Notes under the pieces: model-generated
The model's database searches: none
The model's input: only the letters and a program-made list of their open reading frames with translations
What the model was told of the DNA's origin: nothing
Assembly: GCF_016623495.1 (NCBI RefSeq)
Contig: NZ_JAEHHL010000001.1
Span: forward strand, 310,001-374,000
Length of the DNA stretch: 64,000 nt
Origin: Thermohalobaculum xanthum
Lineage (GTDB): Bacteria > Pseudomonadota > Alphaproteobacteria > Rhodobacterales > Rhodobacteraceae
Direction: 5' to 3'
Position numbers and translations under genes: made by a program
Shown here: positions 1,181 through 4,714 of the stretch, in pieces
How the letters are laid out: each line of letters begins with the position of its first letter
Position numbering within the stretch: position 1 is the stretch's first letter

Positions 1181-1913
1181 AGCCGGGGATCCTCATTGCG
1201 CGCTCCCAGCGGTGCATGCCGAAGACCAGCACCGCGACCAGGAGGATGTAGACGACGAACAGCAGCACCATCGTGGGGTTCTGCGCGCTGGGGTAGTCGT
1301 TCCAGATCGACACCGACTGGTAGAGCAGTTCGGGCACCGCAATGGCGAAGGCCTGCGTCGTGGTCTTCACCAGGTTCACCAGGTTGTTGTTCAGGGCGGG
1401 CAGGCAGACCCGGAAGGCCAGCGGCAGGACGACGTAGCGATAGCTCTGCAGCCGCGAGAAGCCGAGGCTTTCGCTCGCTTCCTGCGTCGATTGCGGCACG
1501 GCCTCGATGCCGGCGCGGAAAATCTCGACATTGAAGGCGCCGGCGAAGAACGACAGCGAGATGATCGCCCAGCCGACGTTCGAGATGATCGGCTGCTGCA
1601 GCCAGCCATCGGGCGAATAGGTCGGCGTGAACTGTCCCAGCGCGAAGTAGAAGAACAGCAGCTGCACGAAGGGCGGCGTATTGCGGAAGAACTGGATGTA
1701 GCCCGCCACCAACAGCCGCACCGGCGCCGCGCGCGCGCCCTGCAACCAGGCGCCGACGATGCCGATGACGACCGAAAGGGCCACGCAGGCGACCGCGAGC
1801 TTGATGGTCATCCAGATGCCCGACAGGATCTTGCCCTGCTGGCGCTCGTCATACATCCAGATGAAGTTCCAGCGCGGCGCGTCCTCGGCCAGCTGACGGA
1901 AGAAGTCCTCCAT
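1170..1913 (-). CDS. Polar amino-acid ABC transporter permease (HisQ/AapQ type)
   Basis: Inner-membrane permease of 247 aa pairing with the next gene. It carries the family segments FFRNTPPFVQLLFFY and, in the EAA loop, QEASESLGFSRLQSYRYV. I place the start at the ATG of MEDFFRQLAED because a GGGAGG ribosome site lies a few bases upstream; the frame stays open 29 codons further upstream but without support. The gene begins 76 nt after the stop of a reverse-transcriptase gene that separates it from the binding-protein gene of the same transporter. That is an unusual interruption of the normal binding protein-permease-permease-ATPase order. Confidence 0.92.
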   Translation of the reverse strand: MEDFFRQLAEDAPRWNFIWMYDERQQGKILSGIWMTIKLAVACVALSVVIGIVGAWLQGARAAPVRLLVAGYIQFFRNTPPFVQLLFFYFALGQFTPTYSPDGWLQQPIISNVGWAIISLSFFAGAFNVEIFRAGIEAVPQSTQEASESLGFSRLQSYRYVVLPLAFRVCLPALNNNLVNLVKTTTQAFAIAVPELLYQSVSIWNDYPSAQNPTMVLLFVVYILLVAVLVFGMHRWERAMRIPGYGT

Positions 1914-1989
1914 CACGCCTCCCATTCCGGCCGGGGCGCTGGGCCGCCCCCGCAACTTTCTGTCCCGGACACTCTGCACGCCCCAAGTG

Positions 1990-3294
1990 TCAAAGCGCAA
2001 CCTTTTGGGCCAGTGCCGCCTCCAGCCGCGCGCGCAGCTTCGCGCCGCGGGCGGGATTGACGGCCTCGGCCCAGGCGATCCTGCCCGCGAGCGCGGCGCG
2101 AAACCGCGGATCGGCGAGGCGCGCGTCGCCGGGGCTGGCGGCGCGGTGGATGATGGCCTTGAGCCGGTCGAACTCCTCGCGCGGCAAGTTGAGGTGGCGG
2201 TTCACCACCAGCCCGGTCACGCATTGCCGGGCTTGGGCGCGCATCACCCGGGTTTTCGCCGCGTTGAGGCGGAAGCCTTCCTCGGCCACGATGCCGGGCA
2301 CCGCGGCCATCAGGGGCGCGACGATGTCAGGGTCGCCCGAGAAGCAGATGTCATCGGCATAACGCGACCATGCCGCCCCGAGGCGGCGTGCCAGTCCCGC
2401 CAGCCGGCGGTCGAGCCCGAAGGCCGATAGGTTGGCCAGCGCGGGCGAGGTCGGAGCGCCCTGTGGCAGGTGCGGGATGCGCAGATAAGGCCGGTCGCCG
2501 GCGCCCAGGCGCTCCATGATCCAGGGGGGCGCCGCGGTCGTGGTCAGCCCCGCAAGGCAGCGCGCCGCGTTGTGCGGGTAGCCCATCGCCCGGAAGATGC
2601 CGAAGACCCTGCCGCGTCCGACCGAGTGGAAGAAATCGGCCAGGTCGAAGCGCAGGACCACCGCCTCGCCCGCGTGGCGCGCGGCGCCGGCCGTCACGCC
2701 CCGCCCGCGGACGAAGCCGAAGGCGTCGCGATGAACCGGCACCGGGTCGAGGATCCCGCGCAGGACCTGGCGCTGCAGGCCCTTGAGCGCGGGCTTCGGG
2801 GCCTCGATCAGGCGCACGCCGCCGGCGCGTTTGGGCACCACGCGGTAGAAATAATGGTTGATCGCGGTCTCCGGCGATGCCTCGGCCCGTCCCGCGAGAT
2901 CGGCGAACTGCGCGAGCCGCTCGGGCGAGAGCATCAGCCATGCCGCCAGCTCGCCCTCGGTCGGCAGTTGCGGCAGGTCGAGGCCGTCAAAGGGCGGCAG
3001 CGGGCGCATGACCGGCGGCTCGGTCTCGGGCGCGGGCCAGACGTTCGTGTTCCGGCAGTGCAGATAGAGATTCTCGAAGGCGGGCGTGCCGGGCAGGGCC
3101 CTCGCCACCACCTGCGGAGGCGGGGTGAGGTCCGACCCCTCGCCGCATGACAGCATCGCGGCGGCAATATCTTTCGCGAGGTGCCGGTGCGCAGGGGGAA
3201 GCCGGCGCGCCAGCACCGCCTGCACTTCGGGCAGGCTCCAGGCGCCTTGCGTCGCGCTGACCGCCAGCCGGTAGGCAAGGGCGCGGGGCTTCAT
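1990..3294 (-). CDS. Retron-type reverse transcriptase (RNA-directed DNA polymerase)
   Basis: 434 aa. Polymerase motifs appear in order: a fingers segment RVVPKRAGGVRLIEAPKP (151-168); motif A FDLADFF with Asp217; motif B LPQGAPTSPALAN (276-288); catalytic YADD (312-315); the thumb-side VTG (359-361) of retron RTs. GAARH (203-207) sits where retron RTs carry NAxxH in region X, so Asn is replaced by Gly. About 140 N-terminal residues precede the RT core and match no domain I recognise; myxobacterial retron RTs also have long N-terminal extensions. No maturase/HNH domain of a group II intron is present. The ATG at 3294 lacks a clear ribosome site. A structured, inverted-repeat-bounded segment lies 43 nt upstream, the expected place for msr-msd. 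No separate effector gene is visible. Retron RTs make branched msDNA and act in phage defence; that role here is inference. Confidence 0.9.
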   Translation of the reverse strand: MKPRALAYRLAVSATQGAWSLPEVQAVLARRLPPAHRHLAKDIAAAMLSCGEGSDLTPPPQVVARALPGTPAFENLYLHCRNTNVWPAPETEPPVMRPLPPFDGLDLPQLPTEGELAAWLMLSPERLAQFADLAGRAEASPETAINHYFYRVVPKRAGGVRLIEAPKPALKGLQRQVLRGILDPVPVHRDAFGFVRGRGVTAGAARHAGEAVVLRFDLADFFHSVGRGRVFGIFRAMGYPHNAARCLAGLTTTAAPPWIMERLGAGDRPYLRIPHLPQGAPTSPALANLSAFGLDRRLAGLARRLGAAWSRYADDICFSGDPDIVAPLMAAVPGIVAEEGFRLNAAKTRVMRAQARQCVTGLVVNRHLNLPREEFDRLKAIIHRAASPGDARLADPRFRAALAGRIAWAEAVNPARGAKLRARLEAALAQKVAL

Positions 3295-3337
3295 GCGGTA
3301 GAGCGCCGGGCGGCGGACCTGGCCGGGGTGCAGCGAA

Positions 3338-3483
3338 CGGTCATGGCCTCACTCGGTCCCGCATGCCCCTGCGTGGGCCTGCGCCCACGGACGGGCATGC
3401 CACGTCTTGCCAGGTCTTGGTCGTCGGGCGGGGATGCCCCGCCCGGGCCCTCGGGTCTCGCGACCCCGGCCAACCCATGACCG
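3338..3483 (-). ncRNA. Candidate retron msr-msd RNA
   Basis: Read on the minus strand, 146 nt are bounded by a perfect 9-bp inverted repeat: CGGTCATGG (3483-3475, a1-like) and CCATGACCG (3346-3338, a2-like). In between, in order: a hairpin GGGTC-GCGA-GACCC with a GNRA loop (3466-3453); a 9-bp hairpin CGGGCGGGG-CAT-CCCCGCCCG (3445-3425); a roughly 25-nt linker; and a 40-nt hairpin (3400-3361) with arms GCATGCCC/GGGCATGC around an inner CGTGGGC-GCAG-GCCCACG stem. This is the layout of known retron RNAs: a1, msr hairpins, one long msd hairpin, a2, then the RT gene. A G follows a1 directly, as a branch point would, but the usual UAGC context is absent. Called from structure and position only. Confidence 0.6.
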
Positions 3484-3498
3484 CCGCTGCTGCGACCC

Positions 3499-3527
3499 AC
3501 GATAGTGCGCGGTAGCAAGGGCGGCAA
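3499..3527 (-). promoter_or_regulatory. Candidate sigma70-type promoter for the retron unit
   Basis: On the minus strand TTGCCG (3527-3522) and TATCGT (3504-3499) are separated by exactly 17 bp. Each box matches its consensus in 4 of 6 positions. A transcript would start near 3492, about 10 nt before the a1-like repeat. The match is modest, so read-through from the binding-protein gene remains possible. Confidence 0.35.
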
Positions 3528-3591
3528 TCCGGGCCGGACGCCGCGCTGCGGGTTTGATGCAGTTGCGCGGAGGTCATGGAAAAATGTTCTT

Positions 3592-3626
3592 ATATCAATG
3601 TATTGCTGTCGATTTCACGCGTGAAA
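3592..3626 (-). repeat. Palindromic interspersed element, copy 1
   Basis: The perfect palindrome TTTCACGCGTGAAA (3613-3626) is followed on the minus strand, after 13 nt, by ATTGATAT (3599-3592). It lies 50 nt past the stop of the binding-protein gene and just upstream of the retron unit, in AT-rich DNA. The same bipartite layout recurs near 32.7 kb and 63.1 kb. Function unknown. Confidence 0.7.
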
Positions 3627-3638
3627 GGACGCGCGGGA

Positions 3639-3667
3639 CCGGCGGCGGAGCCATCGCCCGCCGCCGG
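3639..3667 (-). terminator. GC-rich hairpin after the binding-protein gene
   Basis: A 10-bp perfect inverted repeat CCGGCGGCGG / CCGCCGCCGG with a 9-nt loop lies 9 nt after the stop of the binding-protein gene. No long T-run follows, so it may attenuate transcription or protect the 3' end rather than fully terminate it. Such a hairpin is common between a highly expressed binding-protein gene and its permeases. Confidence 0.5.
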
Positions 3668-3675
3668 CGCATGGC

Positions 3676-4518
3676 TCACTCGGCCAGCCAGTCCTTGAAG
3701 CGTTCGGCCTGTTTCTCGAGATAGGCGGTGGGTTGGATGCCCCACTTCTTCTCCAGTTCGATCAGCGTGCCGTCACGATGCCAGTTGTACTGCATGCCCG
3801 ACATGAACTGGCCGAACACGCACTGCTCCTCGGCCTTGGGCACCGCGAGGCCCCAGGGGTTGTCGTCTTCCGAGGCGAGCGGCATCTCGAACTCCTCGTA
3901 CTGGCCCGAGGAGAGGTCCGACATGATCGAGCTGTCGTCATAGACCCAGGCGATGCATTTCTTGTCGCGCAGCGCCTGCTTGGCCTCGGCGTTGCCCGTG
4001 AAGGCGACGATCTCGGCGCCGTAACGCTCCTCGACGATCTTGTTGTAGAAGGCGCCCTGCTTGCCGCAGACGGGCTTGCCGCGCAGGTCCTCCCACTCCT
4101 TCAGCGCCAGCGCCTTGGGGGCCATCACGTTGGTGCCCGAGGTGTAGTAGTTCGGGCCGACGATGCCGACGATCTCGCGCCGGTCGTTGCGGTCCGACAT
4201 GGTTGCGATCATCAGGTCGATCTTGCCCTGCTCGAGGAACTGCATGCGGTTCGAGGACTGCACGGGGACCAGTTCGAGCTCGACCCCCATGGTGTCGGCC
4301 ACGTCCCTGGCCATGTCGATCTCCATGCCCACGAGCTCGCCCGAGTCGTTCCGGAAGCCCCAGGGCTTGTAGTCGGCCTTGACCCCGACCACGATCTTCC
4401 CGCGCTCCATCACCTTCTTCCAGGTGTCGTTGGTGCATTCCGCCGCGCCGGCCGTCGCCGAGGCGAGGCTCAGGGCGGTCAGTCCGGTGACCGCGGCCGT
4501 CATCAGCTTGTTGTTCAT
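3676..4518 (-). CDS. Polar amino-acid ABC transporter substrate-binding protein
   Basis: Periplasmic receptor, 280 aa, SBP_bac_3 family. The N-terminus MNNKLMTAAVTGLTALSLA ending in ATAGA-AE is a Sec signal peptide. The mature part has the family start GKIVVGVKADYKPWGFRN and the segment GMEIDMARDVADTMGVELEL. The ATG at 4518 is preceded by GGAGGT at good spacing; an open frame 14 codons upstream is not supported. It is the first gene of the transporter operon, but its permeases and ATPase (1913 down to 1) follow only after a reverse-transcriptase unit. The bound amino acid cannot be told by eye. Confidence 0.93.
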   Translation of the reverse strand: MNNKLMTAAVTGLTALSLASATAGAAECTNDTWKKVMERGKIVVGVKADYKPWGFRNDSGELVGMEIDMARDVADTMGVELELVPVQSSNRMQFLEQGKIDLMIATMSDRNDRREIVGIVGPNYYTSGTNVMAPKALALKEWEDLRGKPVCGKQGAFYNKIVEERYGAEIVAFTGNAEAKQALRDKKCIAWVYDDSSIMSDLSSGQYEEFEMPLASEDDNPWGLAVPKAEEQCVFGQFMSGMQYNWHRDGTLIELEKKWGIQPTAYLEKQAERFKDWLAE

Positions 4519-4671: not shown

Positions 4672-4714
4672 CAGGGCGCGCAGGGCGCGCAGGGCGCGCA
4701 GGGCGGGGGACGGG
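4672..4714. repeat. 9-bp tandem repeat, four full copies plus a partial
   Basis: The unit CAGGGCGCG is repeated without error four times (4672-4707) and then partly (to 4714). It ends 5 nt from the stop codon of the deacetylase gene (minus strand) and lies in the upstream region of the amino-acid binding-protein gene. Slippage would change copy number; no function is evident. Confidence 0.85.

Follow-up and report, generated by a model that had tools for sequence, protein, structure and literature searches.

Evidence for a retron in Thermohalobaculum xanthum that consists of two parts, a structured RNA and a reverse transcriptase

A reverse transcriptase (RT) and the structured RNA encoded directly upstream of it very probably form a two-part retron in Thermohalobaculum xanthum, where they are carried as an insert of 1.6-1.8 kb between ABC transporter genes. 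The locus lies in a stretch of 64,000 nucleotides, referred to here as the window (assembly GCF_016623495.1, contig NZ_JAEHHL010000001.1, positions 310,001 to 374,000 of the forward strand). The retron group to which it belongs is little described and seems to be without the usual linked toxin gene. The initial annotation of this DNA had interpreted a segment upstream of the RT as an msr-msd gene, and this interpretation was supported by the presence of the RNA at the same place in RT homologues, by the ability of the RNA alone to find the RT, and by the retron-type character of the RT. Positions are given in Table 1.

Results

Structure of the RNA

The perfect 9-bp repeat, the GNRA hairpin, the 9-bp GC hairpin and the 40-nt two-part hairpin originally described were all present on the minus strand. 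The repeat (CGGTCATGG/CCATGACCG, 3338-3346/3475-3483, minus strand) was found to be the core of an a1/a2 closing helix of 16 pairs with one bulge, in which 3475-3490 pairs with 3330-3346. As the closing helix is longer than first noticed, the RNA was placed at 3330-3491, the extent set by the covariance model, and it consequently ends 35 nt before the RT start. The distance of 43 nt given previously is correct for the edge of the repeat at 3338 (RT start 3294), but not for the full RNA.

Taken alone, the 9-bp repeat is weak evidence; at least one inverted pair of 9-mers within 160 nt occurred in 60% of 500 dinucleotide shuffles of 3200-3700, and the six such pairs in the real sequence were a count reached by 2% of 500 dinucleotide shuffles. 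The fold of the whole RNA is not due to chance. Folding of 3338-3483 gave a z of -5.5, with none of 200 shuffles equally stable, and folding with flanks (3295-3520) gave a z of -2.9, with one of 200 shuffles equally stable. For the 162-nt RNA, the energy was reached by none of 500 shuffles, nor were the 16 end-closing pairs (highest 15). Retron RNAs are defined by an a1/a2 helix of 8-30 bases, one to three msr hairpins and one long msd hairpin (PMC6868368), and the RNA follows this plan, with a 16-pair a1/a2 helix, two msr hairpins and one two-part msd hairpin just upstream of the RT.

Table 1. Positions of the retron features in the window
Feature	Position	Strand	Basis or remark
Whole msr-msd RNA	3330-3491	minus	covariance models R1 (101 bits) and R2 (102 bits), in-sample, as the window copy is in both
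a1 arm of closing helix	3475-3490	minus	consensus helix 1: compensatory change in 15/15 pairs, 95.6% of cells paired
a2 arm of closing helix	3330-3346	minus	pairs with a1; covariation of helix 1
Candidate priming (branch) guanosine directly after a1	3474	minus	G in 25/27 aligned rows
msr stem-loop 1: GGCC stem and GGGTC-GCGA-GACCC, GNRA loop	3446-3471	minus	consensus helix 2
msr stem-loop 2: 9 bp in window, 8 in consensus, 3-nt loop	3425-3445	minus	consensus helix 3
Putative template (msd) region	3347-3424	minus	predicted from the anatomy and the retron mechanism (PMC6868368)
Two-part msd hairpin	3361-3400	minus	89% complementary; consensus helices 4 and 5
Sigma-70-like promoter, TTGCCG-17-TATCGT	-35 3522-3527, -10 3499-3504	minus	7 nt before RNA start
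Retron-type RT, 434 aa, N-terminal extension of ~105-145 aa	1993-3294	minus	start codon at 3294
Segment absent from the same place in the sister species	1902-3664	minus	sister genome G295: flanking homologous blocks 139 bp apart

Covariation

Covariation was assessed in two alignments. A structure-blind alignment of 11 RNAs was made with MAFFT and analysed with RNAalifold, the consensus structure being derived from the same alignment; double-sided change was detected in 29 of 41 pairs, and the covariation score was 0.46 as against 0.18 in shuffles and 0.06-0.14 with the partner slid. In the second, of 27 rows (26 distinct RNAs), which was fitted to the covariance model and so leans towards its structure, double-sided (compensatory) change was detected in 35 of 41 pairs, 95.2% of cells paired, and the score was 0.68 as against 0.20 in shuffles and 0.08-0.13 with the partner slid.

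Compensatory changes upstream of RT homologues, which the initial annotation had proposed should be sought in the a1/a2 helix and in the long hairpin, were found in both, those in the msd hairpin (helices 4 and 5) affecting 11 of 13 consensus pairs. Stem-loop 1 (consensus helix 2) showed compensatory change in all five pairs, with 86% of cells paired and a loop of variable length. Stem-loop 2 was the most conserved element of the RNA, with four invariant inner G-C pairs and four outer pairs that covary among the 26 distinct RNAs. The window RNA differs in sequence from every aligned relative yet keeps its pairs. The fold is established by covariation, and it is conserved in the group.

The RNA could also be regarded as a structured 5' leader or attenuator that regulates the RT gene and is never copied into DNA, given that it shares the strand of the RT and ends 35 nt short of the RT start, and that leaders can covary as well. 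This is very unlikely, as the closed a1/a2 ring, the G at the inner end of a1, the two msr-type hairpins and the long mismatched hairpin constitute the anatomy of a retron (PMC6868368), and the RT is retron-type by both profile and fold.

RNA-first searches

Model R1, which was built from the MAFFT-aligned RNAs, recovered, at E <= 3e-6, 10 of the 12 RNAs that were known at that stage and left out of it (L004, L036, L037, L038, L042, L044, L045, L049, L050 and L051, two of which, L042 and L044, differ little from R1 members). The remaining two, the actinobacterial L039 and L040, were missed by R1 and also by R2. An RNA-only covariance model search of 394 family genomes yielded 16 genomes at E <= 0.01, and there were 15 strong matches (E <= 4e-14), seven of which were model members and eight were not. 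The RT lay immediately downstream on the same strand in 14 of the 15; the other was followed by the first 112 residues of the RT (32% identical) and then by the end of the contig. The RTs behind these matches comprised nine already known from the protein search, five full-length RTs that were 46-51% identical, and the fragment at the contig end. The RNA and the RT are linked.

Two weak matches were also recorded. A 27-bit match in one genome (L070, G184), which had no group RT in the flanks examined, is probably due to chance and possibly an orphan RNA, and G099 contained a second, antisense match to the RNA model. In a phylum sample of 398 genomes, R2 matched three, all of them with the RT; as these three RNAs were already in R2, the new information is the blank result in the other 395 genomes, in which nothing was found with R2 at E <= 0.001 under stricter filters.

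Candidate branch site and putative promoter

An unpaired G was located just inside a1 in 25 of the 27 aligned rows; in L003 the G is one base later, and the alignment of L008 is one base off. UAGC did not follow a1 in any of the 27. When read in the UAGC register, the 25 rows gave AAGN (13), UGGA (9) and, once each, CGGA, GAGA and the GGGU of the window, and none of these is among the contexts of validated retrons given in PMC6868368 (UAGC, CAGA, CAGC, GAGC and ACGC). The departure from described retrons recorded in the initial annotation was therefore real, and, judged by sequence, the unusual branch context appears to be a trait of the whole group.

No mononucleotide shuffle out of 200 contained a match as good as the sigma-70-like promoter of the window. 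Promoter-like pairs at a shuffle fraction of <=0.05 were present in 19 of 27 loci and absent from eight, and a stricter scan (4/6 matches per hexamer) detected no promoter in the window.

The reverse transcriptase

The RT frame is intact over 434 aa, contains YADD and carries a Pfam RVT_1 domain. Against the PADLOC profiles, the protein scored 432 bits with RT_other (PDLC02949), 409 with RT_outgroup (PDLC03740) and 307 with RT_XIII. The first two, which are protein profiles only, were matched by the window RT and 24 homologues (25/25 group members) at E <= 1e-30 and with lower E-values than the rest of the set; the third, that of the Type XIII retron RT, covers only residues 105-430 and lies 125 bits below RT_other. 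A sequence search of the PDB gave retron RTs as the first 14 of 15 matches, some under general names. A structure model, for which the window protein was combined with 25 distant homologues, had a mean pLDDT of 84; its N-terminal region is weak, residues 1-15 and 51-95 being below pLDDT 50. With this predicted fold, retron RTs filled ranks 1-18 of a Foldseek search of the PDB, those of group II introns, DRT and DGR followed lower down, and the best match was Retron-Eco1 (Ec86), with a TM of 0.83 normalised by target and 26% identity over the fold alignment. The RNA of Retron-Eco1 is of the same general plan as the one described here (PMC6868368).

The VTG of region Y is present in the window RT and in 16 of 25 RTs of the group, and is found in 47% of retron-like RTs (PMC4244168). 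In the NAXXH motif of region X, the A and the H were present in 25 of 25 group RTs and the N in none; the corresponding values for retron-like RTs are 100% for H, 87% for A and 62% for N (PMC4244168), and the Asn is also replaced in the validated retrons Mx65 and Ec48 (PMC6868368). By profile, VTG motif and predicted fold, the RT belongs to the retron lineage.

A single RT with a neighbouring non-coding RNA and no recognised linked effector is also the arrangement of DRT2 and DRT9, and the protein might accordingly be a defence-associated RT of that kind with a non-retron template RNA. This is barely credible when Drt2 and Drt3a score 31 and 17 bits as against 432 bits for RT_other, when the best DRT fold match appears only at rank 22, and when the two ends of the RNA pair with each other and a conserved G stands where they meet.

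Relatives and distribution

A protein search of 295 family genomes produced 26 matches at E <= 1e-20, eight of these at E <= 1e-100, while in five genomes of the genus the only match at E <= 1e-60 was that of the window itself. Two matches were obtained from 385 class genomes and four from 398 phylum genomes; in the genera of three of the matches, 2/2, 5/6 and 4/15 genomes were positive. Plasmids yielded 91 matching records, of which five were examined.

An RNA of the same plan was present just upstream of the RT at 22 loci with close RT homologues, and a 23rd (L042) was found by the covariance model. The RNA-bearing loci include two Burkholderia plasmids (L037, L038). Plasmids of Dietzia and Tsukamurella (L039, L040) have a like RNA upstream of the RT, identified by folding only, and these actinobacterial RNAs perhaps constitute a distinct subfamily. 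Relatives carrying a covarying RNA upstream of the same RT are the opposite of what the initial annotation had named as evidence against its reading, namely homologous loci without the RNA or without covariation.

No RNA was found by model at loci where the RT was at most 43% identical and matched mainly in the catalytic core (L009-L035 and L041, the latter from Methylobacterium), a result that is uninformative for L030 and L035, where only 166 and 6 nt lie upstream of the match. Six distant RTs, 28-36% identical, were all that the contig scan with the single protein returned; no RNA was found at them by model, L030 and L035, with upstream sequence too short to judge, being among them. In the protein scan of viral contigs, identity did not exceed 37% at any of the 80 loci obtained, and no RNA was found with R2 in the 67 of the 80 searched. 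One RT match (L045, in G825) contains a single in-frame TGA, and this copy may therefore be broken; its RNA scored 64 bits with R1.

Insertion site and neighbouring genes

An ABC transporter cluster is split by the retron, with the gene for a family 3 solute-binding protein on one side and that for a permease on the other, and only the promoter, the RNA and the RT were recognised in the segment 1902-3664. In the sister species (G295; L094, reverse complement, 1367-1507) the transporter genes are adjacent without the retron, representing an empty site, and no RT match was detected in that genome at E <= 1e-60. G298, the other genome with the permease, has a different gene preceding it. A short GC-rich head-to-tail repeat (CAGGGCGCG units) was seen by eye at 4672-4705 of the window, upstream of the solute-binding protein gene.

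Linked genes were compared as clusters of ORFs of at least 70 aa within 5 kb at 25 loci, some of which are shorter. Apart from the RT, and antisense and some overlapping frames, no cluster was common to more than nine loci; the largest non-RT cluster (9/25 loci) appears to consist of ABC ATPases at varying distances. Twenty loci had a long downstream ORF, and ten of these ORFs were scanned: four belonged to ordinary metabolic Pfam families, two were ABC-F-like ATPases and four matched nothing. The two ABC-F-like ATPases were also the only ones to match PADLOC (mad3, 185 bits), which was taken as generic ATPase similarity. Seven upstream ORFs gave four ordinary families and three without a match. 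No conserved linked or fused effector was thus found in the ORF clusters of the 25 loci, the scanned neighbours or the insert of the window, and the group is therefore not visibly characterised by a linked effector. In this the group differs from tripartite retrons, which have a linked effector, and from Retron-Eco1, whose effector is linked (7v9x). An unlinked or lineage-specific effector is possible.

An ABC-F-like ATPase gene was observed near the retron in L075, L077 and L078, and farther off in L076 and L087. The gene lies 34-78 bp downstream in three genomes, Pfam having been run on L075 and L076 only, and this arrangement suggests a shared, vertically kept site.

The absence of an RT match (E <= 1e-60) from the other four of the five genomes of the genus, together with the lack of a recognised linked effector, might be expected of a decayed, non-working remnant. 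Such decay is extremely unlikely given the intact frame of the RT with its YADD, and given that the RNA has kept its pairs while diverging in sequence from all aligned relatives.

Discussion

The product of Retron-Mxa2, msDNA-Mx65, has 65 nt of DNA and 49 nt of RNA, and the product predicted for the window retron (55-78 nt of DNA and about 50 nt of RNA) would be close to this size. Because of this similarity, the loss of the Asn of NAXXH (25/25) and the N-terminal extension, Mx65-type myxobacterial retrons look nearest among known kin, the comparison being with their published description. An extended RT N-terminus is described for Mx65 (Retron-Mxa2) and for the myxobacterial RT group (Mx162, Sa163 and Ne144), and the substituted Asn is shared with Mx65 (PMC6868368); the Mx65 RT gene is 1284 bp by its coordinates (PMC8934634), which is close to the 434 aa found here. 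The branch contexts differ, being GAGC in Mx65 and CAGC in Mx162 and Sa163 (PMC6868368), as against mostly AAGN or UGGA in this group and GGGU in the window.

The suggestion that the family may be new did not hold for the RT, which is already catalogued by PADLOC as an 'other' or 'outgroup' retron RT. It may hold for the RNA. At the gathering score, Rfam matched only two tRNAs in the window and had no model for the RNA; six weak matches at 3200-3700 (E 0.06-3.4, miRNA and the like) were far below the cut-offs and were taken as chance. The literature search, whose reach did not extend to the 2020 retron classification or the 2024 census, gave no recognisable description of this RNA. On the basis of the Rfam result, the RNA family may be undescribed.

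The following mechanism is proposed for the retron. A promoter belonging to the retron would drive transcription of the RNA and the RT gene together, with the start just before a1. Pairing of the a1 and a2 ends, which is supported by covariation, would place G3474 beside the start of the template. The RT would recognise the RNA, most likely via the nearly invariant stem-loop 2 with its 3-nt loop, by analogy with the RT of Ec86, whose binding site is a stem of 8 bp capped by a 3-nt loop (PMC6868368), and would prime from the 2'-OH of G3474. Copying would proceed from ~3347 through the hairpin at 3361-3400 and stop before stem-loop 2, between 3401 and 3424. The resulting molecule would be branched, with RNA joined to 55-78 nt of hairpin DNA.

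With about an even chance, and by tentative argument, the retron may act in phage defence or stress sensing, either with an unlinked partner or through the N-terminal domain of its RT. A broader proposal, which we regard as rather unlikely, is that the group is a lineage present in the family of the window, in a genus of another family, in Burkholderia and probably in actinobacteria, which primes from a G outside the described contexts (AAGN/UGGA) and is effector-free, so that RT and RNA would be complete in themselves and the N-terminal helical region of the RT would be the effector or partner-binding part.

A retron without an adjacent effector gene bears on what such retrons do. The 26 aligned distinct RNAs, the defined boundaries, the likely promoter and the empty site in the sister species make the function testable by simple deletion, and the msd hairpins, which are short and GC-rich and have a different branch context, may widen the range of retron parts for making DNA in cells.
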